A stretch of 51,337 nucleotides of DNA from NCBI GenBank assembly GCA_016934715.1, contig JAFGSI010000023.1, positions 1-51,337 on the forward strand. The letters run 5' to 3'. The notes below the pieces were generated by a model. The model saw nothing but the letters and a program-made list of their open reading frames with translations, did not search any database and was not told the origin of the DNA. The DNA comes from Anaerolineales bacterium (GTDB lineage Bacteria; Chloroflexota; Anaerolineae; Anaerolineales; Villigracilaceae). This document shows positions 1,046 through 10,490 of this stretch, piece after piece; positions within the stretch are counted from its first letter, which is position 1, and every line of letters begins with the position of its first letter. A program made the translations under genes and the position numbers.

Positions 1046-1651
1046 TTGAGAAAACAAAGAGATGGCGAAGACACCAAACAACGCGTCTTATCCGCTGCGC
1101 AGGAGCTCTTCGCAGCAAAGGGCTTTTCCGGAACGTCGCTCCAAAAAATCGCCCTGAGGTGTGGCATATCGGATGGCCTGATCCTCCACCATTTCCAAAG
1201 CAAGAAGAACCTTTATCGCCAGGTACTGGAAAACCTGGCAGAGCAGTATACCCAGGTGCTTGTGCAAGCCAAAGAGGCCAGCGCTACTCCTCAAGAGATG
1301 ATGCAGCAGACCCTGACGGCTTCCTTCAACTTTTGGAAACAGGATTCAACCTACCAGCGCATCTCACTGTGGGCTTACCTGGAAGGACAGACCGAATTTG
1401 CAGAGAAAGAAGCCTATTTGACCGCCGGCCTGGCACAGGCAGTCAAGCAGCTCCAGGTACAGGGGCTCATCGACAACCGCTTCTCTCCTGCAGTCCTCCT
1501 GACCCTGGTCATCGGACCCATCCACTTCTGGCTGCGTTACCGCGAACAATTCAGAGCGGCCCTGAACCTGATCGAGACATCCGACGAACTGGACCAACTC
1601 TTTCTTGGGCAGTTGATTCAACTGGTGATGGAACTCTCGGCGAAAACATAA
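1046..1651 (+). CDS. TetR/AcrR-family transcriptional regulator
   Basis: This 201-aa protein has an N-terminal TetR helix-turn-helix at about residues 8-58, with the typical run from AAQELFAAKGFSGTSLQKIA through ISDGLILHHFQSKKNLY. A variable ligand-binding domain follows. Translation starts at TTG 1046, supported by AAGGAGAG just upstream. A palindrome inside its promoter suggests self-repression. Two methyltransferase genes follow on the same strand after 29 bp and may be its targets. The ligand is unknown. Confidence 0.88.
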   Translation: MRKQRDGEDTKQRVLSAAQELFAAKGFSGTSLQKIALRCGISDGLILHHFQSKKNLYRQVLENLAEQYTQVLVQAKEASATPQEMMQQTLTASFNFWKQDSTYQRISLWAYLEGQTEFAEKEAYLTAGLAQAVKQLQVQGLIDNRFSPAVLLTLVIGPIHFWLRYREQFRAALNLIETSDELDQLFLGQLIQLVMELSAKT

Positions 1652-1680
1652 TGGGCACTTGTCCAAAAGGAGAGGAAACG

Positions 1681-2595
1681 GTGTCGAAACGACGAATACA
1701 AACCAGGTCTTCGCAGACAGCCGCGTACATCTGTTTTTCGCGCGGCTGCGCTACACGGGAAAAAGATCCTCGTTTTCGCGGGCCGGACACCCTGGCGGAG
1801 ATCCTGTTTCCCCCCATGGCCAGGTTGATGCTGAACGCTACCCCTTTGCGAAAAGCCCTCATGCGCACAATGTTCCCCCCCGGAATCCATGAGTACGTCC
1901 TCGCCCGGACGAAGGTGATGGACGCGGCCTTTGTGGATGCGCTGGAAGCCCGCTTCGCCCAGATCGTTCTGCTGGGTGCCGGTTTTGACACGCGTGCCCT
2001 GCGTTTTGCCGACCGCAATCAGGGAACGAAAGTCTTCGAACTGGATGTCGCCACCACGCAACAAGCCATGCGAAAAGTCCTAAGGGATAAAAAGATCCCC
2101 TTACCCGCAGATTGTATCTTTGTCCCCATTGATTTTGAGAGGCAGGACATCTTCGCTGTGCTGTCAGAAGCCGGTTACCGGCCGGGGCAGAGAAGTCTGT
2201 TCCTCTGGGAGGGCGTCACCATGTACCTGTCCGCCCAGGCGGTGGACAACACGCTGGAATTCATTCACCATCATGCCGCCCCTGGCAGCCGCGTGGCCTT
2301 TGATTACATTTACGCTTCAGTGCTGCGGCGAGAGAACCGGTACTTTGGAGAACAAGAGATTTTTGATACGATCGCCAATACCGGCGAAGGCTGGACTTTC
2401 GGACTGGAAGAGGGCGAGATCGAATCCTTCCTGGTCAAGCGGGGATTCGATCTGATCGCTCACTATACCCCACCCCAATTAGAAAAACGATACCTGACTG
2501 CGGAAGATGGAAGGCTGCACGGGCGCGTCAACGGGACCCATTGCATCGTCCTCGCTTCAGTCAATGGAGGTTCTGGTGAAAAGAACAACGACTGA
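1681..2595 (+). CDS. Class I SAM-dependent methyltransferase of the LCM/TIGR00027 type
   Basis: The GTG start at 1681 follows AAGGAGAGG and gives 304 aa. The open frame continues far upstream through the TetR gene in another phase, but only the part after 1681 resembles a protein. LLGAGFDTRALRF is the SAM-binding loop of the leucine-carboxyl-methyltransferase-like family, followed by an acidic strand (FELD). LWEGVTMYL and a late HGRVNGTHCIVLA stretch also fit that family. The substrate is unknown; many relatives act on polyketides or other small molecules. It overlaps the next methyltransferase by 20 bp, implying translational coupling. Confidence 0.8.
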   Translation: MSKRRIQTRSSQTAAYICFSRGCATREKDPRFRGPDTLAEILFPPMARLMLNATPLRKALMRTMFPPGIHEYVLARTKVMDAAFVDALEARFAQIVLLGAGFDTRALRFADRNQGTKVFELDVATTQQAMRKVLRDKKIPLPADCIFVPIDFERQDIFAVLSEAGYRPGQRSLFLWEGVTMYLSAQAVDNTLEFIHHHAAPGSRVAFDYIYASVLRRENRYFGEQEIFDTIANTGEGWTFGLEEGEIESFLVKRGFDLIAHYTPPQLEKRYLTAEDGRLHGRVNGTHCIVLASVNGGSGEKNND

Positions 2596-3340
2596 GATCC
2601 CCAATTATGGCAACTGGGTGAACATAAAATTCATCTACATTCCCGGGTTGATCGGCTTAACCTTCCTGATTCTGGCCTTCTTCGTGCCGATCCTGGCGAT
2701 CCTGGCCGGGTTGTTCCTTCTGCTGGCTGCGTACTTTGCTTATGCGCGCCACCTTTTCGCCCCGCAAGGGAAGAACGTCCAGGGAAAAATCTGGGCAAAG
2801 CTGCTTGACCATCTGGATTGGGACGGAAATGGGAAAATCCTGGATATCGGATGTGGCAGTGCGGCTCTTGCCATTGCCCTGGCGAAAAAATACCCGCAGG
2901 CATCTGTCACGGGGATCGATGACTGGGGAAAAGGCTGGGAATACTCGCACAGTATCTGTGAACGTAATGCCCGGATCGAAGGGGTCGAGCCGCAGGTCAC
3001 ATTCCAGAAGGCCAGCGCCTCCAGGATCCCTTTTCCGGATGACTCTTTTGATCTGGTCGTAAGCAACCTGGTCTTTCACGAGGTCGCCGGTACCATCGAT
3101 AAGCGTGAATTGCTCCGGGAGGCTTTGCGGGTGGTCAAGAAAGGTGGGACGTTTACCTTCCAGGACCTGTTCTTGATCGAGCCAATGTTCGGCAAGATGG
3201 ATGCTCTGCTGGAGGTTGTTCGCAGTTGGGGCATCAGCCGGGTGGAGTTTATCGAGACGCGCAATGAACCTTTCATTCCGACAGCCTTGAAACTCCCCTT
3301 CATGGCTGGGACAATCGGAATTCTGGTGGGGGTGAAATAA
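2576..3340 (+). CDS. Membrane-anchored class I SAM methyltransferase
   Basis: The GTG start at 2576 is preceded by ATGGAGG inside the upstream gene and gives 254 aa. Two hydrophobic segments (about residues 18-55) form an N-terminal hairpin anchor. A Rossmann methyltransferase domain follows, with ILDIGCGSAALAIALA as motif I, a GIDDW acidic strand end, and PFPDDSFDLVVSNLVFHEV as motif II/III. The catalytic domain should face the cytoplasm. The substrate is not recognisable; membrane anchoring suggests a lipid or hydrophobic target. It is probably co-transcribed with the preceding methyltransferase under the TetR gene. Confidence 0.75.
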   Translation: MKRTTTEIPNYGNWVNIKFIYIPGLIGLTFLILAFFVPILAILAGLFLLLAAYFAYARHLFAPQGKNVQGKIWAKLLDHLDWDGNGKILDIGCGSAALAIALAKKYPQASVTGIDDWGKGWEYSHSICERNARIEGVEPQVTFQKASASRIPFPDDSFDLVVSNLVFHEVAGTIDKRELLREALRVVKKGGTFTFQDLFLIEPMFGKMDALLEVVRSWGISRVEFIETRNEPFIPTALKLPFMAGTIGILVGVK

Positions 3341-3495: not shown

Positions 3496-4275
3496 TCAGA
3501 CCGGTTTCTGAGCAATGACCCAAAGGCATACAGGGTTGATCTCAAAGTCTCCGTCCTGGATCCTTTCAATCTTATAGCCAATGCCTTCGAGAAGTATTTT
3601 AAGTTGGTCAGGCGTATAGTAGCGGGGACGAGTGTCCGTACGATCATTGAGGCACGCCTGGTAAGCAAATTGATCGTAGCGGGACTTGAGACTCTGAAAC
3701 TGGAAAAGGACCTTTCCACCGGGTTTGAGACATCTGAAGGATTCAACGAAATATACGAAAGCATCTTCCGCAGGCATATGAACGAAGGTTGCCAGGGAGA
3801 AAACCAGGTCGAACCTATTCTCTTCGAACAGGGATAGATCCTTCCCATTGTTGACATGCAAAAAACAGTTCGGATGCTCGCGGTTATACTTGCGCCCGAG
3901 CCTGATCGCCTTTGGAGACTTGTCCACGCCGTGAATCTCGCCAACCAGCGGCGCCAGGAATTTTTCAACCCGTCCAACTGCACAACCGATGTCCAGGACA
4001 TTCGCAAGATCGGGGAACAACCGCGCGATCATCTCAGCATCGCACTTCCCTGTTTCCGGGTCGTAGCGTGTATTCCAATCATCTGCATTAAGGATGTAAC
4101 TCCCCGCATAGGTGATATCGACTTTCACATCCAAACCAATCGGCGAAAGGAACCGACGAATAAATGTCTGAAAGCCGACCAGGCGTCTTTTGTTTCCTGA
4201 TACGGGTTCTACTTTCTGGTCGTCAAAAACTGGATGCACCAAGAAGTTTTTCATTAGGTTTTGTGATTCCTCCAC
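3496..4275 (-). CDS. Class I SAM-dependent methyltransferase
   Basis: This 259-aa protein carries VLDIGCAVGRVEKFLAPL (motif I), a GVDKSPKAI acidic-strand motif and a LKPGGKVLFQFQS post-motif strand, so it is a Rossmann methyltransferase. The Cys in DIGCAVGR and the DWNTRYDP stretch resemble small-molecule or sugar-associated methyltransferases rather than RNA enzymes. It converges with the gene ending at 3340 and follows a strong terminator of the upstream minus-strand gene. It therefore probably has its own promoter in the AT-rich stretch at 4276-4345. The substrate is unknown. Confidence 0.75.
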   Translation of the reverse strand: MEESQNLMKNFLVHPVFDDQKVEPVSGNKRRLVGFQTFIRRFLSPIGLDVKVDITYAGSYILNADDWNTRYDPETGKCDAEMIARLFPDLANVLDIGCAVGRVEKFLAPLVGEIHGVDKSPKAIRLGRKYNREHPNCFLHVNNGKDLSLFEENRFDLVFSLATFVHMPAEDAFVYFVESFRCLKPGGKVLFQFQSLKSRYDQFAYQACLNDRTDTRPRYYTPDQLKILLEGIGYKIERIQDGDFEINPVCLWVIAQKPV

Positions 4276-4347
4276 AAGAATGGCGAATACCGCAACCCTG
4301 ATTATATATCCAATGCAGGATTGGATGGTGACCCGTCGCCAATTAAA

Positions 4348-4407
4348 CCCCTCGGCCTGCCGCTCTCAAACGCAAGCTTGTGCTTGGCGCAGCGGCAGGC
4401 CGAGGGG
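4348..4407 (-). terminator. Large nested hairpin terminator of the HD-GYP gene
   Basis: A perfect 16-bp inverted repeat (4348-4363 with 4392-4407) encloses an inner CAAGC-ttgt-GCTTG hairpin. On the minus strand the stem is followed by TTTAATT. It lies 37 bp after the stop of the HD-GYP gene, so it should end that transcript. Confidence 0.65.
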
Positions 4408-4444
4408 GTGCAAAAGAGGGCCTCAAAGACGCCAGGCGCCTGGA

Positions 4445-5914
4445 TCAAGCCCCCATCATCTGCAGAAATGCCTTGACGACTGTCGGATCGAAGTGTCGGC
4501 CGGCCTCCTGGCGGACATGCTCCAGGGCCCTGGTTACCGGCCAGGCGGAGCGAAATGGCCGCTCCGAAGTCAAAGAATCATACACATCCACCACGCTGAA
4601 GATGCGGGCCGGGAGTGGAATCTGATCCTGGAGCAAACCATTGGGATAACCGCTCCCGTCCCAACGCTCATGGTGGTACAGCGGGATCTTCAACGCCGGG
4701 GCAAGGTAGGCCACCGTTGAGAGAATCTGGCCGGCCATTTGCGGGTGACGCCGGACGATCTCCCACTCTTTCTCGTCGAGCGGACCGGGGCGATTCAGGA
4801 TTTGGTCGGAAATCCCGATTTTCCCGACATCATGCAGGAGGGCCCCGCGCCGGATGTGGACCAGTTCGTCCTCCTGGATGCCCATCTGACGGGATAATTG
4901 CTCGGTCAGCTTGATCACGTTCCGGATGTGGATACGGTCCTCACGCCCACTGACCTCGAGAGCCTTCGACCAGCTCTCAATCATCGCATCATAGGCCATC
5001 CCCAACTCGGCATTGGCATTCTGCAGGTCCAGGAACATCGAGGCACTGTCAATGGCCAGGGCGGCCTGGGAAGCCAGCATGCCCAGGAATTCGAGCCAGT
5101 CTTCCTGCGGCGTCAGCGGCGACCGGTGATAGATCTCCAGAACCCCCTTGACCTGCCCCTTGGCAATCAACGGGACCGCGTAATAGCTCATGAAGCCTTC
5201 GAGGTTGAAATCGGGCAATAACGCCCCTTCCATCCAGTTGGAAGGCAACGTCGACAAGCTGACGGTCCGCCGCTCGAGGACAGCAATCCCGGCATACCCT
5301 TCACCGACCCTGACAGCAGGGCGATGGGCTTCGGGCATCCGAAATCCCTTCCCGGCGGCAAATTCGAGCATCCGCATCCTGGAATTGAAGAGCAGCACGT
5401 CAGCGGCATCGACGGCCAACTGGTTGATCACTTCCCGCAGGATGACTGAAAGCGTGACCGTCAGGTCGAAACTGGATGAGATGGCGGCGTCGATGGCATG
5501 CAGGGCTGTCAATTGGCGCAACTGCAGCCGCGACCGTTCGGACATATGCACGTGCTCAGTGATGTCCCGCACGAGAACAATGACATGTTCACGGCCTTCC
5601 GGGACCAGGCGGGCATCGAACCAGCGTTCCCCCTTCGAGGTCGTCAGCTTATACTTGAGCCCACTGACCTGCCCCGTGGCATTTGCCTTTCGCAAGGCCT
5701 TCTCGAAAAGGTCGCCCACTTCAGGAGGCAGGATCGCCTGCATCGTTTTGCCCAGGAACTGCTCGGGGGATGAATAGAGCAATGCCGGATCACCGGCGCG
5801 ATAATGCAGGATCGTTCCATCGAACCGGGTCCAGAAGAGCAAATCGGGGAAAGCGTTAAAAATCGCTTCCAGTTGGCGTTCGGGATCGAACTCGGGCGTG
5901 TCCGGATGGAGCAT
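4445..5914 (-). CDS. PAS-GAF-HD-GYP cyclic-di-GMP phosphodiesterase
   Basis: This 489-aa protein has a PAS domain (about residues 10-120), a GAF domain (about 135-285) and an HD-GYP domain (about 300-489). The HD-GYP part keeps HDVGKIGI, HHERWDGSGYP and VVDVYDSLTS, the metal-binding and GYP signature residues, so it should hydrolyse cyclic-di-GMP. No membrane segment is seen. I chose ATG 5914 because AGGATGG lies 8 nt before it; ATG 5926 and TTG 5938 are alternatives. It follows the 108-aa gene in the same direction, but a 120-bp gap with a hairpin (about 5980-6001) separates them. What PAS and GAF sense is unknown. Confidence 0.87.
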   Translation of the reverse strand: MLHPDTPEFDPERQLEAIFNAFPDLLFWTRFDGTILHYRAGDPALLYSSPEQFLGKTMQAILPPEVGDLFEKALRKANATGQVSGLKYKLTTSKGERWFDARLVPEGREHVIVLVRDITEHVHMSERSRLQLRQLTALHAIDAAISSSFDLTVTLSVILREVINQLAVDAADVLLFNSRMRMLEFAAGKGFRMPEAHRPAVRVGEGYAGIAVLERRTVSLSTLPSNWMEGALLPDFNLEGFMSYYAVPLIAKGQVKGVLEIYHRSPLTPQEDWLEFLGMLASQAALAIDSASMFLDLQNANAELGMAYDAMIESWSKALEVSGREDRIHIRNVIKLTEQLSRQMGIQEDELVHIRRGALLHDVGKIGISDQILNRPGPLDEKEWEIVRRHPQMAGQILSTVAYLAPALKIPLYHHERWDGSGYPNGLLQDQIPLPARIFSVVDVYDSLTSERPFRSAWPVTRALEHVRQEAGRHFDPTVVKAFLQMMGA

Positions 5915-6035
5915 TTGCTGAGCCATCCTTGGGCTCAAGACTGTACCAGTTCACACGATTAACGGCCGGGACGCGGGCACAGCAGGCCCCCTGGGCTGCT
6001 GCGCCCCCACCCACCGCGCCATCCGGTCCGACCGC

Positions 6036-6362
6036 TCAGATGCTGACGTATCTGCTGTCGTGAGCGGGTTGATGTACCTGCAGGCCTGCCTGCTCTCCCA
6101 GCAGCCAGGCGATCTGCCAGGCCAGTTCCGCCAGGGAATTGGCCCGCAGGGAAAGGATCAAATCCCTTTCCTGATCGTTCAAACAAAAACTTTCGTCCTG
6201 ATACCCATCCCGCAGCGCCAATTCGGGCTCTGCCAGCAGCAGGCGGCAGAAGGATGGGCTCACCACCGCAGCGGCAAGCAGCCGGCAAACCTCGCGATGA
6301 TTCTCCAGAGAGTCCTGGAATGCCAGCGGGACCGACACCTTCAGGGTCTGATAATTCAACAT
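6036..6362 (-). CDS. Small protein, possible precursor-type (NHLP-clan-like)
   Basis: This is a 108-aa soluble-looking protein. Its middle part shows the pattern SPSFCRLLLAEPELALRDGY, then an FCLNDQERDLILSL motif and a SLAELAWQIA stretch. By eye this resembles small nitrile-hydratase-like-leader-peptide or Os1348-type proteins, in which a residue block ending in L..P..AL precedes an F.L...E helix. The resemblance is weak and unverified. The ATG lies inside the end of the DUF5317-like gene (7-bp overlap), so the two are translationally coupled and belong with the 47-aa ORF and the large regulator upstream. Function is unknown. Confidence 0.7.
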   Translation of the reverse strand: MLNYQTLKVSVPLAFQDSLENHREVCRLLAAAVVSPSFCRLLLAEPELALRDGYQDESFCLNDQERDLILSLRANSLAELAWQIAWLLGEQAGLQVHQPAHDSRYVSI

Positions 6363-6946
6363 GGCACTTCCTCTAAATGCAGAATGATTCGGCGCCGGCT
6401 TCCAGCTGCCATCATCCAGAAAACGCCGATAGCGATAAAAACATCTCCGAGGCTGAACGCAACCTGGTAAGGAAAGCCGGCCGGAGGCAGAAGGCGGTCA
6501 CCGAGAAAGGCCAGTTGCGTCTGCGCGAGTGGAAGCAGAACATCCTTCCAGCCGAACCGGCCGCCGATCTGGACTGTGGCCAGAGCATCTGCCGAAACCA
6601 GCCGCCCGGCAGTCTCAGGGCTGATCGGCATGAAACCGCCGTGAACAGCCATGATCAGCAGGTTGCAGGCCGTCCCGAGAGCCAGAACCCAGACCCCGAC
6701 CGTCCGGCGATTCAGCCAGCAGAATAGCAGCAGGAGTGTCTGGGAGAGGATCAGGCCTGCACCAGCCAGCGCAACGGGGATCTCTGTTCGGGCCTGCGGC
6801 AGGTAGACCGCGACCAACTGCGGCAAAAAAGCGATCGGGACCAACCACAGGAAACGAAGCCCTGGAGGCTCCCAGGAACGCTTCTGCCAGCGTGCCACGG
6901 CCAGACCAGCCAGCAGCCCGGCCAGAACAGCGGCCAGGAGGACCAA
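6356..6946 (-). CDS. DUF5317-like polytopic membrane protein
   Basis: This 196-aa protein has about five or six hydrophobic segments: residues 1-18, 30-48, 58-76, 82-102 and two near the C-terminus. A conserved-looking loop reads NLLIMAVHGGFMPIS, followed by GGRFGWKDVLLPL. I recognise this as DUF5317, a membrane family of unknown function. Translation probably starts at TTG 6946, 3 bp after the stop of the 47-aa ORF with no clear Shine-Dalgarno of its own, so translational coupling is likely. It overlaps the 108-aa gene by 7 bp. A role in processing or exporting the upstream peptide is inference from context only. Confidence 0.78.
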   Translation of the reverse strand: MVLLAAVLAGLLAGLAVARWQKRSWEPPGLRFLWLVPIAFLPQLVAVYLPQARTEIPVALAGAGLILSQTLLLLFCWLNRRTVGVWVLALGTACNLLIMAVHGGFMPISPETAGRLVSADALATVQIGGRFGWKDVLLPLAQTQLAFLGDRLLPPAGFPYQVAFSLGDVFIAIGVFWMMAAGSRRRIILHLEEVPC

Positions 6947-6949
6947 GGC

Positions 6950-7093
6950 TTAGCGGGGACCGATCCCGCCGTCGTCTGGGGCGCCAGCACCCAGAACGAA
7001 CAGGGCCAGGGTGAGCAGCACGAGGATGATCTGCACGTGCTGACGATTGATCTTGCTGACGAACAGGTTGATCTGAGAGAGTTTGCCTTTCAT
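6950..7093 (-). CDS. 47-aa signal-peptide-like small protein, candidate secreted pro-peptide
   Basis: The ORF starts at ATG 7093, preceded by AAGGTGG, and stops at 6950-6952. It begins MKGKLSQINLFVSK, has a hydrophobic core (VQIILVLLTLALFVL, about residues 20-34) and ends GAGA then PDDGGIGPR. The Ala-Gly-Ala before PDDGG fits a signal peptidase I site, which would free a 9-residue peptide; otherwise it is a one-pass membrane protein with a short polar tail. It sits between the giant regulator and the DUF5317-like gene with a 3-bp gap to the latter. I know of no assigned function. Confidence 0.7.
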   Translation of the reverse strand: MKGKLSQINLFVSKINRQHVQIILVLLTLALFVLGAGAPDDGGIGPR

Positions 7094-7188
7094 TGGCCAC
7101 CTTCCATGCGGTCAGAATATCGAACAGTACAACGTTACAGCCGGGCAGGCTTCAAAGGTGGCTTCAATTTGTGCTGCCCCCCACAACC

Positions 7189-7219
7189 TATCGGCGCCTC
7201 AACCCATGAGGCGCCGATA
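7189..7219. repeat. 12-bp inverted repeat spanning the stop codon of the large regulator gene
   Basis: TATCGGCGCCTC (7189-7200) and GAGGCGCCGATA (7208-7219) form a perfect stem with a 7-nt loop and include the regulator's TGA stop. There is no T-run on the minus-strand side, so it may be a weak terminator or an attenuating hairpin limiting read-through into the 47-aa ORF. Confidence 0.5.
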
Positions 7220-10200
7220 CAAGGCTTCGGTCTCGGGAGCCGGCTCGAGGTCCAGTTCGAGGCGCAGGGCTTTCCGGCAGGCCTGATACTGACGGGTCAC
7301 GGCGACCCGGTCCCCGCGCCCGGCATACAGTTCCATCGCCAGGCAGTGGAACTGCTCCAGGCAGGGATCCTCCCGCAGGGCCCGGTGGCAGGTCTGCAAG
7401 GCCCGCTCCGGATTTCCCTCCTGTCGGTACAGACCGGCCAACTCCTGCAAGGCCTCCAGATATTTCTGGCGCAGGCGTTCGCGTTCCGGCCAGACCCAAT
7501 CGGCGTCCAGGTCACGCAGGTAAGGCCCGTCCCAGAGACGGACCGCGGCGGCGAGATGCCGGACCTGCTCCTCAGCGCCTCCGGCCGAGCGGGCCCGCGC
7601 CAGCAGGCTCTCGAAGGCTTCGACATCATATTCGTAGTCCAGATCGCTGTTGAAGCAATACAGATCATTCCCGAACAGGACGACCTCCGAACCGAGAGCC
7701 CGTCGCAGCCGGTACAGGTCGTTCTTGAAGCGCAGTTTCAACTGGCGGGCATCCATTTCGGGCCAGAAGACCGCCCCGATCTCCTCCTTCGTCACCGGGC
7801 GAGGTACAGAAAGCAAGTAAAAGAACAGGTCGCGGACCGAGGTCGTCTGCCACTGCGACGAGGTCACCAGCCGGCCATTGACCCGGACCTGTGGCCGGCC
7901 CAGGCCGCGGATCGCCAGACGCGCCCCTTGCAAAGGGACCGACGTATCCAGTTGGCGCAGGCGTTTGTGCAGGCCCGGCAAGCGCGCTTCCACCTGCTCA
8001 GCCTGTTCCAGCCAGGCGGACAGGAGCGGACCCACCTGTGGATCCTCGACCAGTCCGGCCAGCCAGGGACGCGCCCGCCGGACTGCCTGGACCAGGGCCT
8101 GGACCTCCTGCCCGGGGCGGACATCCGCCAGCGACTCTTCGACATCCCGGCGGGCTGCGGCGAGATCCCCGCCCGCCAGCCGGGCAACTGCCAGCCAGAA
8201 CCGCGCCACGGCATTCTCCGTGACCAGGTTCCCCTGCCGGAAGCCATCCACCGCACGGACGAGTTCCCCGGCAGCCTGGTCGGGGTCTCCGCAGACCAGG
8301 GCGAGACGACCACTTTCGAGCTGCCACAAGCTGCGCTCATAACCGGACTCGTTGGACTGGATGAAGGTATGGGTGATGGTCAGATGAGCACGCGCCTCCT
8401 GGAACTGGCCGCGCAGGCGGGCCAGGCGGGCCTGGGCCAGCCCGAGGTAGTTAATCAGGAATTGGTAGCTGACCTGGTAGGCGATCTCGGTCGCCATCTC
8501 ATAGGCCTGGCCGGCAGCGTCGAATTCATCCAGATCGATGTAAACATCGCCCAGGCTCACCAGCAGCAGGGATCGCTGCCAGGGCAGGCCGCCCTGGCGG
8601 GCACAGTTCAGCCCGTCTTCCAGGGTCCGCAGGGCGGATTCGTAGTCCCCCCGGGAATGATGCAGGACCCCCAGGCTGTTCAGAACATTGGCCTGGGAAT
8701 GGAGATTGTTTTCCCGACGCCATTCTGCCAGCGCCTGTTCGTAGGCCTGCAGCGCAGAAGCGTCATTGCCCAGGGCCCGATAGGCAATGCCAAGTTCCAT
8801 CTGCAGCCGGGCGATGCTGGGAGCTTCCCCGAGGCGCTCATAAGCCTGCAGGGAGTCCTGCAACGAACGGGCTGCCAGCGAGGCCTGACCCAGGCGGAAA
8901 AGACTCAACCCCTTGAAGCGGGCCGCCTCGGCATAGACCGCCGCCAGATCGGCGAAATCTGCGCTTAAGACCAGGGACTCCTCGGAATCCTGCAGGGCAC
9001 CCGCATAATCCCCGACCAGGCGCCGGGCCGCTGCCCGGCGGACGAGGGCCAGGGCCAGCCCATCCGGCCGACTGCCCGGGCGGAAGGCCGCCACGGCCCG
9101 GTCGAGCAGAGGCAGCGCATCGCTGCCCTTCCCGGCGGCACACAGGAAAGCTCCCTTGAGCGAGAGCAGGGCTGCACGCTCGTCGAGCAGGCTGGCCGGC
9201 AGGGAGTCGAGCCAGGTGCGCAGGGTCAGCAAACGCTCGTGCAGCAGCATCGCCGGTCCGGCCTGCTCGGTCAGGTCGGCCAGTCGGGTCTGGTTGCCAT
9301 ATTGCTGGTAGATCTGGTAAGCCCGGTCCCAATCGCCACGCTCGGTACAGACCGCCGCCAGGCGCATGAAAAGCGCCTGCGCCCCGACCGGGTCCTCCTC
9401 CAGGTAGCGGGACAGCAGGAAATCCCGGAACAGGGGATGATAGCGCAGGGCGCGCCCATGCGGACCGACCGGCAGAACGAAGAGGTTGCTGCGCCTGACC
9501 GCTTCGACCTGGCGCTTCCAATTCCCATCCCCGAGGACAGCGGCGCACAGTTCGGCATCGAACTCGCCCAGCACGGAAGTCTGCAGCAGGAAGCGGCGCA
9601 GGGCAGCCGGTTGTGGAGCAAGCACCTGCTGATCAAAGTAGCCGGCCAGGTCCACACCGGCGGCGCGGGCGGCGCGCGACAGGTCCGGGATGACGCCGGC
9701 CGCATCCGGAGCGGACAGGTGCAGGCCGGTGATCCAACCCTCGGTGCGCTGTATCAGGCGCTCCAGCGTGGCCTCGTCCAGATCGACCCCGTACTGGCTG
9801 GCGAACAACTGGCAGATCTCATCGGCGCGAAAGGCCAGTTCCTCCAGGTCGAAGCCGATCACCTGCTGGCGGGCCACCAACAGGGCGATGTCGGGCAGGG
9901 TTGGCAGGCGGCGGGAGGCCAGGACCACGTGACAATGATCCGCTGCCAGGTGGATGAAGCGGCTGACAAACCCGGCAATCCCGGTCACCGCATCGACAAA
10001 ATGAAAGTCGTCGATGACCAGGACGAAATGTTCTCCGATCCGTTCGTAGACTTCGTTGACCAGGGTCGACAGCAACTGCTCCCCATCCTCGGCAAAGGAA
10101 ACCAGCCGCTTCAGCGCCGCGACGGACTGCCTGCCGAACTGCGGAAAACGCTCGGCCAGGGCGGCGATCAAATAAGCGCTGAAGCGCTGCGGATCGCGGT

Positions 10201-10423
10201 CCACCTCGTCCAGCGTCAGCCAGCAGACGGCCATTTCGGTATGATGGGCCATGTCGACCAGGAAGGTCGTCTTGCCATACCCGGCCGGGGCCGTGACGAG
10301 CAGGAGCTTCTTTTCCAGCAATTCGTCGAAGAATCCCAGCAGCCGCTCACGGTGCAGGATCTCCGGACGCAGCGCCGGGATGACGATCTTGGTTCGGTTC
10401 AACGGCAATGGGTCAGCCGACAT
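7199..10423 (-). CDS. Giant AfsR/MalT-like regulator: AAA+/STAND ATPase, TPR array and C-terminal BTAD
   Basis: This is a 1074-aa protein. The STAND-type ATPase has Walker A TAPAGYGKTT at residues 44-53 and a Walker B FVLVIDDFHF. TPR-like helical repeats cover the middle (about 430-790). A winged-helix plus bacterial transcriptional activation domain ends it (about 830-1070, from VRVNGRLVTSSQWQ through the terminal PAPETEALYRRLM). Such proteins use the TPR region to bind a ligand or partner and activate transcription on ATP binding. The ATG at 10423 has GAGGG five bases upstream and follows the MalT-type N-terminus; an upstream in-frame start near 10477 lacks support. Its neighbour downstream is a secreted-peptide-like ORF, a plausible ligand. 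Confidence 0.88.
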   Translation of the reverse strand: MSADPLPLNRTKIVIPALRPEILHRERLLGFFDELLEKKLLLVTAPAGYGKTTFLVDMAHHTEMAVCWLTLDEVDRDPQRFSAYLIAALAERFPQFGRQSVAALKRLVSFAEDGEQLLSTLVNEVYERIGEHFVLVIDDFHFVDAVTGIAGFVSRFIHLAADHCHVVLASRRLPTLPDIALLVARQQVIGFDLEELAFRADEICQLFASQYGVDLDEATLERLIQRTEGWITGLHLSAPDAAGVIPDLSRAARAAGVDLAGYFDQQVLAPQPAALRRFLLQTSVLGEFDAELCAAVLGDGNWKRQVEAVRRSNLFVLPVGPHGRALRYHPLFRDFLLSRYLEEDPVGAQALFMRLAAVCTERGDWDRAYQIYQQYGNQTRLADLTEQAGPAMLLHERLLTLRTWLDSLPASLLDERAALLSLKGAFLCAAGKGSDALPLLDRAVAAFRPGSRPDGLALALVRRAAARRLVGDYAGALQDSEESLVLSADFADLAAVYAEAARFKGLSLFRLGQASLAARSLQDSLQAYERLGEAPSIARLQMELGIAYRALGNDASALQAYEQALAEWRRENNLHSQANVLNSLGVLHHSRGDYESALRTLEDGLNCARQGGLPWQRSLLLVSLGDVYIDLDEFDAAGQAYEMATEIAYQVSYQFLINYLGLAQARLARLRGQFQEARAHLTITHTFIQSNESGYERSLWQLESGRLALVCGDPDQAAGELVRAVDGFRQGNLVTENAVARFWLAVARLAGGDLAAARRDVEESLADVRPGQEVQALVQAVRRARPWLAGLVEDPQVGPLLSAWLEQAEQVEARLPGLHKRLRQLDTSVPLQGARLAIRGLGRPQVRVNGRLVTSSQWQTTSVRDLFFYLLSVPRPVTKEEIGAVFWPEMDARQLKLRFKNDLYRLRRALGSEVVLFGNDLYCFNSDLDYEYDVEAFESLLARARSAGGAEEQVRHLAAAVRLWDGPYLRDLDADWVWPERERLRQKYLEALQELAGLYRQEGNPERALQTCHRALREDPCLEQFHCLAMELYAGRGDRVAVTRQYQACRKALRLELDLEPAPETEALYRRLMG

Positions 10424-10439
10424 TCCTACCCTCAAGATA

Positions 10440-10490
10440 ATTGTAACCGCAATCCTGCCCGCATGTGTCAGACCCATTTCAGGGTATACT
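10440..10490. promoter_or_regulatory. Divergent promoter region
   Basis: On the minus strand TACAAT (10440-10445) lies 16 bp before the regulator's start codon at 10423. On the plus strand TATACT (10485-10490) faces the dehydrogenase gene at 10544. Neither has a convincing -35 box, as expected for activator-dependent promoters. Confidence 0.4.

Follow-up and report, generated by a model that had tools for sequence, protein, structure and literature searches.

Does a bacterium of the Chloroflexota encode a short peptide that acts as a signal? The question is raised by a locus in a stretch of 51,337 nucleotides (contig JAFGSI010000023.1 of assembly GCA_016934715.1; hereafter the window), which is part of the 4.09-Mb genome of an Anaerolineales bacterium. 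The locus is a minus-strand cassette of five genes encoding a large regulator, a peptide of 47 amino acids (aa), a membrane protein of the family DUF5317, a 108-aa protein of the NHLP clan and a PAS-GAF-HD-GYP phosphodiesterase (Table 1). A first-pass annotation made from the sequence letters had described the first four genes and proposed that the peptide is exported, matured and read by the regulator. The positions given there were borne out, including the 3 bp (6947-6949) between the 47-aa open reading frame (ORF) and the DUF5317 gene and the overlap of 7 bp (6356-6362) between the latter and the 108-aa ORF; the fifth gene (4445-5938) and a direct-repeat promoter (7148-7167) had been overlooked. 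Our comparisons make it almost certain that the locus is a conserved, self-contained peptide-linked cassette, and the peptide-signalling interpretation is plausible but unproven.

The cassette was recognized by comparison with related loci. A scan of named genomes yielded 116 DUF5317 relatives, the best 80 of which were kept and form, together with the window, a set of 81 loci; because these were picked by similarity to the cassette DUF5317s, figures from the set gauge conservation inside this group and not throughout the phylum. The usual order comprises a regulator with STAND, TPR, winged helix-turn-helix and BTAD parts, one to five copies of the peptide gene, DUF5317, the NHLP-clan protein and HD-GYP. 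As had been predicted, the 47-aa ORF keeps its place next to DUF5317 and the BTAD regulator: the peptide is present in 80 of the 81 loci, and in the single locus without it (L078) the contig starts only within DUF5317. A regulator homologue lies upstream in 75 of the 81 loci. It is split into two ORFs in five of these (L062, L063, L065, L082 and L083), reflecting either assembly errors or decay. Five of the six loci without a regulator have fewer than 510 bases upstream. The real exception is L122, which shows the order peptide-DUF5317-NHLP-HD-GYP and has 3.9 kb of upstream sequence (before position 3896) with no regulator homologue. An NHLP-like homologue occurs in 79 of the 81 loci and is missing from L136, at a contig end, and from L113, while the homologue of the fifth gene was found in 66 of the 81, always on the same strand and directly after the NHLP gene. 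The peptide stop codon is at most 10 bases away from the DUF5317 start, as set by script, in 56 of 80 loci. Five rows were left out of reference lists or alignments: L078, L112 and L126 from the DUF5317 list, with no start in range, and L071 and L136 from alignment A2. The cassette is also present in the named strain Bellilinea caldifistulae GOMI-1 (L100).

The pairing of peptide and DUF5317 was followed further in 61 related genomes. PF17248, the Pfam model of DUF5317, matches in 17 of them, and a short ORF of the 47-aa kind precedes DUF5317 in 16/16 other DUF5317 genomes, one of which (L024) shows the end of the ORF only. Searched with a 49-peptide profile (alignment A3 holds 49 of the 90 peptides known), the same 17 genomes and none of the other 44 give matches at an expect value (E) of 1e-9. 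This 17/17 agreement depends on the threshold: the weakest true match stands at 3.5e-10, and weaker matches appear from 4e-5 upward in genomes without DUF5317 (G019 with 4e-5, then G016 with 5.6e-4).

Across the 81 loci, the peptide family comprises 90 ORFs, including tandem arrays of two to five copies in six loci (L066, L084, L095, L123, L128 and L133). L095 (1345-2581) has five peptide genes in tandem ahead of a single DUF5317 gene, and three of the five have identical products. The export-signal shape attributed to the window peptide was confirmed: it ends in ...LFVLGAGA-PDDGGIGPR, with about 13 mostly hydrophobic residues followed by a small-x-Gly-Ala-Pro pattern. When 82 distinct peptides were anchored at Gly-Ala-Pro, duplicates and peptides shorter than 34 aa being left out, Gly (equivalent to Gly37) was found in 82/82, an invariance partly owed to the anchoring motif, Ala in 79/82 and Pro (equivalent to Pro39) in 77/82. 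Gly or Ala stands four residues before Pro in 78 of the 82, and the hydrophobic stretch covers about 13 residues (-17 to -5). The tail measures 8 or 9 residues in 64 of the 82 peptides and has Gly at its fourth position in 80%. The ratio of nonsynonymous to synonymous substitution rates (dN/dS), pooled over 266 non-independent pairs of at least 55% identity with unsaturated synonymous differences, is 0.35 in the N-terminal region, 0.16 in the hydrophobic core, 0.11 at the helix end with AGAP and 0.43 in the tail. Since dN/dS is lower in core and helix end, it is the peptide body that is better conserved, and the expectation that the C-terminal tail would be the conserved part did not hold. The tail is nevertheless constrained in length and composition and, with the values given above, is not random in this set. 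The reading as a chance ORF is ruled out by dN/dS below 1 in every segment together with the conservation; judged by its pattern of substitution, the 47-aa ORF is a real gene family under selection.

A further common feature was found in the promoters, for which 79 upstream regions measuring 60 nt or more were available. In 60 of them an 8-base word is repeated directly and without mismatch at a period of 12, compared with 0.1 in mononucleotide shuffles and 0 to 4 regions for each other period between 8 and 23. The repeated word varies among loci (TGAAGCC, GGAAGCC, TGCATCC, TGATGCC, TGTCTAC, TGGAGCC and others, each as an identical pair), yet both copies agree over 8 bases in these 60 regions. 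A TANNNT box follows exactly 10 nt after the repeat in 49 of the 53 loci with a GNAGCC-type repeat, other offsets reaching at most 6. The repeat of the window is the sole exact copy in the genome, and with two mismatches allowed there are five further sites, against four for a reversed-pattern control. Among 12 loci outside the 80-locus set, picked for a same-strand regulator directly upstream, a repeat excess was seen at period 11 (4 perfect repeats versus 0.06 expected, and 6 versus 0.70 with 7 of 8 bases matching). On this pattern we consider it quite probable that the neighbouring regulator binds the repeats and that the peptide operon is its main target. In the relatives L019, L022 and L027, a GC-rich hairpin with a T run was seen by eye between the regulator stop and the operator, which suggests that the regulator is transcribed apart from the peptide operon.

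The regulator itself was analyzed by domain searches, and its identity as a BTAD/TPR protein was upheld, as was that of DUF5317. Pfam gave BTAD with 1.4e-23 and TPR_12 with 5.8e-22, the TPR region extending over residues 431-780 approximately. The NCBIfam MalT model matches residues 10-427 with 2.8e-65 and 220.9 bits, below its cut-off of 537 bits, and a Walker A motif (APAGYGKT) can be read directly. An alternative start at 10477 would lengthen the protein to 1092 aa. The winged helix of the window has no match of its own and was assigned by alignment; a weak PF00486 match (0.0027, below cut-off) exists in the relative L156. Within it, the recognition helix probably corresponds to residues 891-910, according to our own assignment. 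Among 322 columns ranked by their association with the half-site, columns 902, 894 and 897 take places 2, 4 and 10, and the three TGTCTAC loci carry N901K. This correspondence, though confounded by kinship, points the same way, i.e. to a regulator that would bind the repeats.

For the membrane protein, the PF17248 match reaches 107.7 bits against a cut-off of 25. An AlphaFold2 model built with 76 sequences has a predicted local distance difference test score (pLDDT) of 93 and shows helices at residues 2-20, 35-48 with 50-55, 58-78, 85-101 and 166-181. They are read as five predicted membrane spans with a conserved loop (102-165) between the fourth and the fifth, which we read as facing outward by the positive-inside rule, on the side where the peptide tail would point. 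Invariant in the 76 sequences are G10, Q43, N79, G91, N95, G104, M106, P107, R130, D150, S165, G167, D168 and G174. A role as transporter or peptidase, as suggested in the first-pass annotation, found no fold support in Foldseek or VIA searches; VIA scored highest on an unrelated design (Z 5.7), and among PDB sequences a profile search hit only an unrelated chain, at E 0.65. To our eye, D150, D168 and the FSxGD...G motif, read in the window protein as D150...FSLGD168..G, recall LspA. An LspA-like (signal-peptidase-II-like) DUF5317 is unsupported, LspA being absent among the Foldseek and VIA matches listed. No relative was detected in viral contigs scanned with the single window DUF5317, a query that detects close relatives only, and no paper on DUF5317 was found in the open-licence library of PubMed Central (PMC) papers searched. 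Elsewhere, DUF5317 forms the N-terminal part of long ORFs (596-781 aa from stop to stop) after an HD-GYP gene in L137-L140 and L142, the remainder of which looks to us like an MFS transporter. In L156 (G217, about 3750-4712), the DUF5317 frame runs on by eye into an NHLP-like stretch, for which the family profile and Pfam gave no confirmation. DUF5317 also scores above cut-off in the control genomes of Thermotoga maritima and Thermus composti.

The 108-aa protein had been considered as a possible second precursor. NF038399 is matched at E 0.01 or better by 62 of the 63 aligned members of its family, with 5.7e-9 as the best value, and PF14407 by 52 of the 63 (alignment A4, 63 of the 79 relatives with the window included); the window protein remains below the cut-offs of the clan, with 18.5 bits versus 40 for NF038399 and 17.7 versus 48 for PF14407. 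By its family it is nonetheless assigned to the NHLP clan. Invariant and near-invariant columns of the alignment stop at A81 of 108, and the AlphaFold2 model (mean pLDDT 75) is confident only at about residues 21-90. The best PDB match, the proteusin 9cjx, a ribosomally synthesized and post-translationally modified peptide (RiPP), is not significant (E 6.4). Because it ends soon after the clan domain and no conserved core was seen, the protein does not resemble a second precursor, and this part of the earlier proposal was not upheld. In the fifth gene product, the HD-GYP motifs are intact and can be read directly (LLHDVGKIG and HHERWDGSGYP).

Co-variation of the peptide with its partners was assessed in 57 of the 81 loci with complete parts by correlating pairwise distances of peptide segments with those of the regulator segments, of DUF5317 and of the NHLP protein, each partialled on the others. 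The results are treated as suggestive because the 24 partial correlations per set are uncorrected and rate-dependent; the permutations (400, in the rank set 200) set a p floor near 0.0025 (0.005), and the dereplication at 12% removed no locus. Across segments and sets, distances in the peptide body follow those in DUF5317 with a partial r between 0.11 and 0.34 (p between 0.002 and 0.12); for the hydrophobic core and the TPR region, the partial r lies between 0.21 and 0.25 (p between 0.002 and 0.005). The correlation between N-terminal region and TPR region is lost in the 42-locus core set. Winged helix and N-region motif correlate in the full sets (r 0.17 to 0.20, p 0.027 and 0.010) and no longer in the core set, where hydrophobic core and NTPase are negatively correlated (r -0.22, p 0.010). 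The tail shows at most a weak signal with the NTPase (p 0.017 to 0.36 over sets, 0.046 in the first run), and nothing consistent was obtained for BTAD or the NHLP protein with the peptide. A tail acting as TPR ligand is not supported by co-variation. Altogether, the correlations are suggestive of a leader handled by DUF5317 with a variable tail and fit, equally, a membrane subunit.

Beyond the group of the window, PF17248 matches in 118 of 400 sampled Chloroflexota genomes, and 77 further loci of this sample were read. In two conspicuous arrangements, the gene directly upstream of DUF5317 encodes a regulator (13 loci) or, by rule, HD-GYP (14 loci). Tiny signal-like ORFs precede DUF5317 in the former and HD-GYP in the latter; at their C-terminus, a GA-type motif is followed by 3 to 14 residues, among which Trp is frequent (as in GADLKWH and GAPIPWSGK). 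A fixed rule finds such an ORF in 6 of the 13 regulator loci and 9 of the 14 HD-GYP loci versus 6 of 824 control windows. By eye it was seen in 12/12 regulator gaps and 12/14 HD-GYP gaps, figures that are softer than those of the fixed rule, which itself was set afterwards. In L151, upstream of position 6098, two identical copies ending in AGADSRWA lie before an HD-GYP-DUF5317 pair. From these counts, a partnership of micropeptide and DUF5317, via regulator or HD-GYP, is likely, but not at every DUF5317 gene; the regulator would not be the sole partner of the tiny ORFs, because similar ones occur without it before HD-GYP-DUF5317 pairs.

Taken together, these data suggest, with a probability that we place a little short of an even call, a peptide consisting of a leader and a short tail, exported or inserted with DUF5317 and released as a signal within a local regulatory loop. 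In such a loop the regulator would bind both direct repeats via its winged-helix/BTAD end, and a ligand switching its ATPase/TPR part would let it activate one main promoter, that of the peptide-DUF5317-NHLP operon, which HD-GYP follows. The peptide body, with its KINRQH-type N-terminal region and the 13-residue hydrophobic segment, would be recognized in the membrane by DUF5317 and the tail carried outward. There it may be cut at G-x-G|A-P, by signal peptidase I or with the help of DUF5317, yielding a short signal that starts with A-P and continues for about 8 residues; this site is predicted from the (-3,-1) rule of signal peptidase I. The least certain steps are that signal or precursor might return to the TPR domain, as positive or negative feedback, and that the NHLP and HD-GYP proteins might pass the response into cyclic di-GMP. 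The original proposal is supported by the conserved cassette, the signal anatomy, the tandem copies and a promoter of the SARP type; the conserved tail and the 108-aa precursor were not borne out.

Several observations weigh against the signal. The tail is the least conserved part of the peptide and shows no clear co-variation with the TPR region, where partial r ranges over the sets from 0.02 to 0.16 and p from 0.81 to 0.02. Signal peptidase I would be impeded at A|P by the Pro that adjoins Ala, so that cleavage would fall one residue earlier or not occur at all, and an N-region motif as conserved as KINRQHIQ exceeds the needs of a signal peptide. DUF5317 has no significant match among solved structures, Foldseek giving nothing below E 4.8 against the PDB. 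The association of recognition helix and half-site is confounded by kinship, as columns outside the winged helix rank as high (E938 first). HD-GYP has no homologue in 15 of the 81 loci, 12 of which have more than 1.6 kb of downstream sequence, and of 46 further DUF5317 sites in the phylum, just 6 have a tiny peptide by the fixed rule. Finally, L230 (G031:C249, 1-3141), a second cassette in one genome from a bin with 10% contamination, has regulator, peptide, NHLP gene and a GAF/HD-GYP start read by eye and no DUF5317, so DUF5317 can be missing from the cassette.

The weightiest competing explanation, which we still regard as rather unlikely, is a single-pass membrane micropeptide that stays with DUF5317 as subunit, anchor or inhibitor; the operon would then encode a device in the membrane, perhaps one that senses and feeds HD-GYP, and something else would be sensed by the regulator. 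The conserved body with its co-variation with DUF5317, the close spacing of the two genes in 56 of 80 loci and the tiny ORFs beside DUF5317 where no regulator is seen are all in keeping with it. However, about 13 hydrophobic residues are short for a membrane anchor, the tail length is kept at 8 or 9 in 64 of 82 peptides, tandem copies would be unusual for a subunit and L230 retains the peptide without DUF5317. The co-variation of hydrophobic core and TPR region, not clearly shared by the tail, would rather suit a monitor of export or membrane state, in which the TPR domain binds uninserted or unexported peptide and reports on its own cell, not on neighbours, and the exact operator, present once in the genome at the cell's own peptide, would agree with this. 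Such Mantel-type tests on related sequences are merely suggestive, though, the N-region loses its TPR correlation in the core set and we know of no such monitor with a STAND-SARP regulator, so that we hold this explanation to be improbable.

Marginally less probable again is a secreted bioactive micropeptide, RiPP-like or bacteriocin-like, with the NHLP-clan protein as a leader-like helper. It would account for the clan similarity of the 108-aa protein and for the leader and variable tail of the peptide, SARP regulators often govern biosynthetic clusters (excerpts of PMC10972967), and the three methyltransferase genes within 5 kb keep a modified peptide alive as an explanation. Against this, the family search of the five cassette proteins revealed no modification enzyme, protease or ABC exporter, the function of DUF5317 being unknown, and the tail lacks conserved Cys, Ser or Thr, the residues usually modified. 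A translated leader coupling DUF5317 translation, or an attenuator, would explain the tight spacing in many loci and was already disfavoured; it is hardly credible in view of the constraint at the amino acid level (dN/dS 0.11 to 0.43), the invariant Gly and near-invariant Ala-Pro, the tandem full copies and the similar ORFs ahead of a different gene, HD-GYP, in other lineages.

Among known systems, the signal as outlined resembles RRNPP systems of Bacillota (Rap, Rgg, NprR, PlcR, PrgX), in which a small pro-peptide of secreted type adjoins a TPR regulator, as the 47-aa peptide does by its sequence, and tandem copies occur. In the excerpts at hand, RRNPP systems are defined by a receptor of 250-500 aa with peptide-binding TPRs and an adjacent secreted-type pro-peptide of 10-100 aa, validated ones measuring 21-50 aa (PMC10075063), and tandem pro-peptide copies are described (PMC11343458). 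In contrast, the cassette regulator has 1074 aa, a STAND NTPase and a SARP-type DNA-binding end, the tail is not the best-conserved part, extra DUF5317, NHLP and HD-GYP genes are present and the host phylum is Chloroflexota. In RRNPP systems the mature C-terminal peptide binds the TPR domain inside the cell; in the cassette, the tail does not clearly co-vary with the TPR region. The cassette is therefore RRNPP-like in outline and not a member, because its receptor type misses the definition as excerpted (PMC10075063). A word search of the available portions of PMC10075063 and PMC9765709 found no mention of Chloroflexi.

With SARP and SARP-LAL regulators (AfsR, PimR, ActII-ORF4) the cassette shares BTAD and a pair of direct repeats that are spaced by roughly a helical turn and followed by a -10-like box. 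According to partial texts, SARP sites are heptamer direct repeats with an 11-bp period (7 + 4 nt) over the -35 region, and PimR has a single target promoter (PMC10972967, PMC5930380). Unlike in SARPs, the DNA-binding end is C-terminal to STAND-TPR, the target is a micropeptide operon instead of a biosynthetic cluster, and the period is 12 in the group of the window and 11 in other groups of the phylum. The MalT-like NTPase half (below model cut-off) followed by a TPR-rich sensor is reminiscent of MalT/LAL-type STAND regulators. The output of MalT is a LuxR-type helix-turn-helix, whereas that of the cassette regulator is a winged helix plus BTAD. NHLP-clan RiPP precursors (Os1348, Franean1_4349) share the NHLP-like domain with the 108-aa protein and its relatives, but the window protein lies below the curated cut-offs and shows no conserved core peptide. 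RpfG-type HD-GYP signalling depends on a fatty-acid signal. As there, an HD-GYP phosphodiesterase is a likely output of a cell-cell signal, its link to the peptide being genomic only; in contrast, the signal would be a peptide and no two-component pair was seen in the cassette.

No genetically encoded peptide signal for Chloroflexota was found in the open-licence PMC library searched. It is conceivable, if on the whole doubtful, that the loci reflect an ancient peptide communication of this phylum, in which a micropeptide with a tail of 4-10 residues, handled by DUF5317, would have either a STAND-TPR-SARP regulator or an HD-GYP/DUF5317 pair as its reader, while both the tails and the half-sites in the DNA would have diverged between lineages like private channels. 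If true, this would provide a genetically encoded peptide signal for a poorly cultured phylum and a first role and pathway for DUF5317, and would place a STAND-SARP class among the regulators believed to sense peptides. A conserved family of micropeptides linked to DUF5317 and HD-GYP would merit a name even without a signalling role. The system is testable, as it offers a single exact operator, a single operon, a synthetic peptide of 10 residues and a named carrier strain.

Table 1. Features of the peptide-linked cassette and of neighbouring genes in the window.
Feature	Position	Strand	Size or basis
Regulator: MalT-like STAND NTPase, TPR, C-terminal winged helix and BTAD	7199..10423	(-)	1074 aa
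Winged-helix part of the regulator, aa 854-925	7649..7864	(-)	assigned by alignment; RFKNxxYRLRRA core largely conserved
Putative operator: two direct repeats TTGAAGCC-N4-TTGAAGCC, 12-bp period	7148..7167	(-)	repeat test and genome scan
-10-like hexamer TAACGT, 10 nt past the second repeat	7132..7137	(-)	TANNNT at offset 10 in 49/53 loci
47-aa signal-like pre-peptide gene	6950..7093	(-)	90 family members in 80/81 loci
Predicted releasable decapeptide A38-R47 (APDDGGIGPR), if cut at G-x-G|A	6953..6982	(-)	inferred from small-x-Gly pattern
DUF5317 membrane protein, TTG start	6356..6946	(-)	196 aa; PF17248 7e-31
NHLP-clan (Os1348/Franean1_4349-like) protein without evident core	6036..6362	(-)	108 aa; NF038399/PF14407 family matches
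PAS-GAF-HD-GYP phosphodiesterase, last cassette gene	4445..5938	(-)	HD_5 2.7e-32, GAF 2e-12, PAS_4 1e-11
LCM-type methyltransferase (PF04072)	ORF 1159-2595		window
Methyltransf_11/25-type methyltransferases	2507-3340 and 3496-4275		window

In the wider genome, one signal peptidase I, 11 oligopeptide-binding proteins of the SBP_bac_5 family and 10 GGDEF proteins were matched. Besides the three methyltransferase genes, a TetR gene and an iron-dependent repressor gene lie within 5 kb of the cassette.

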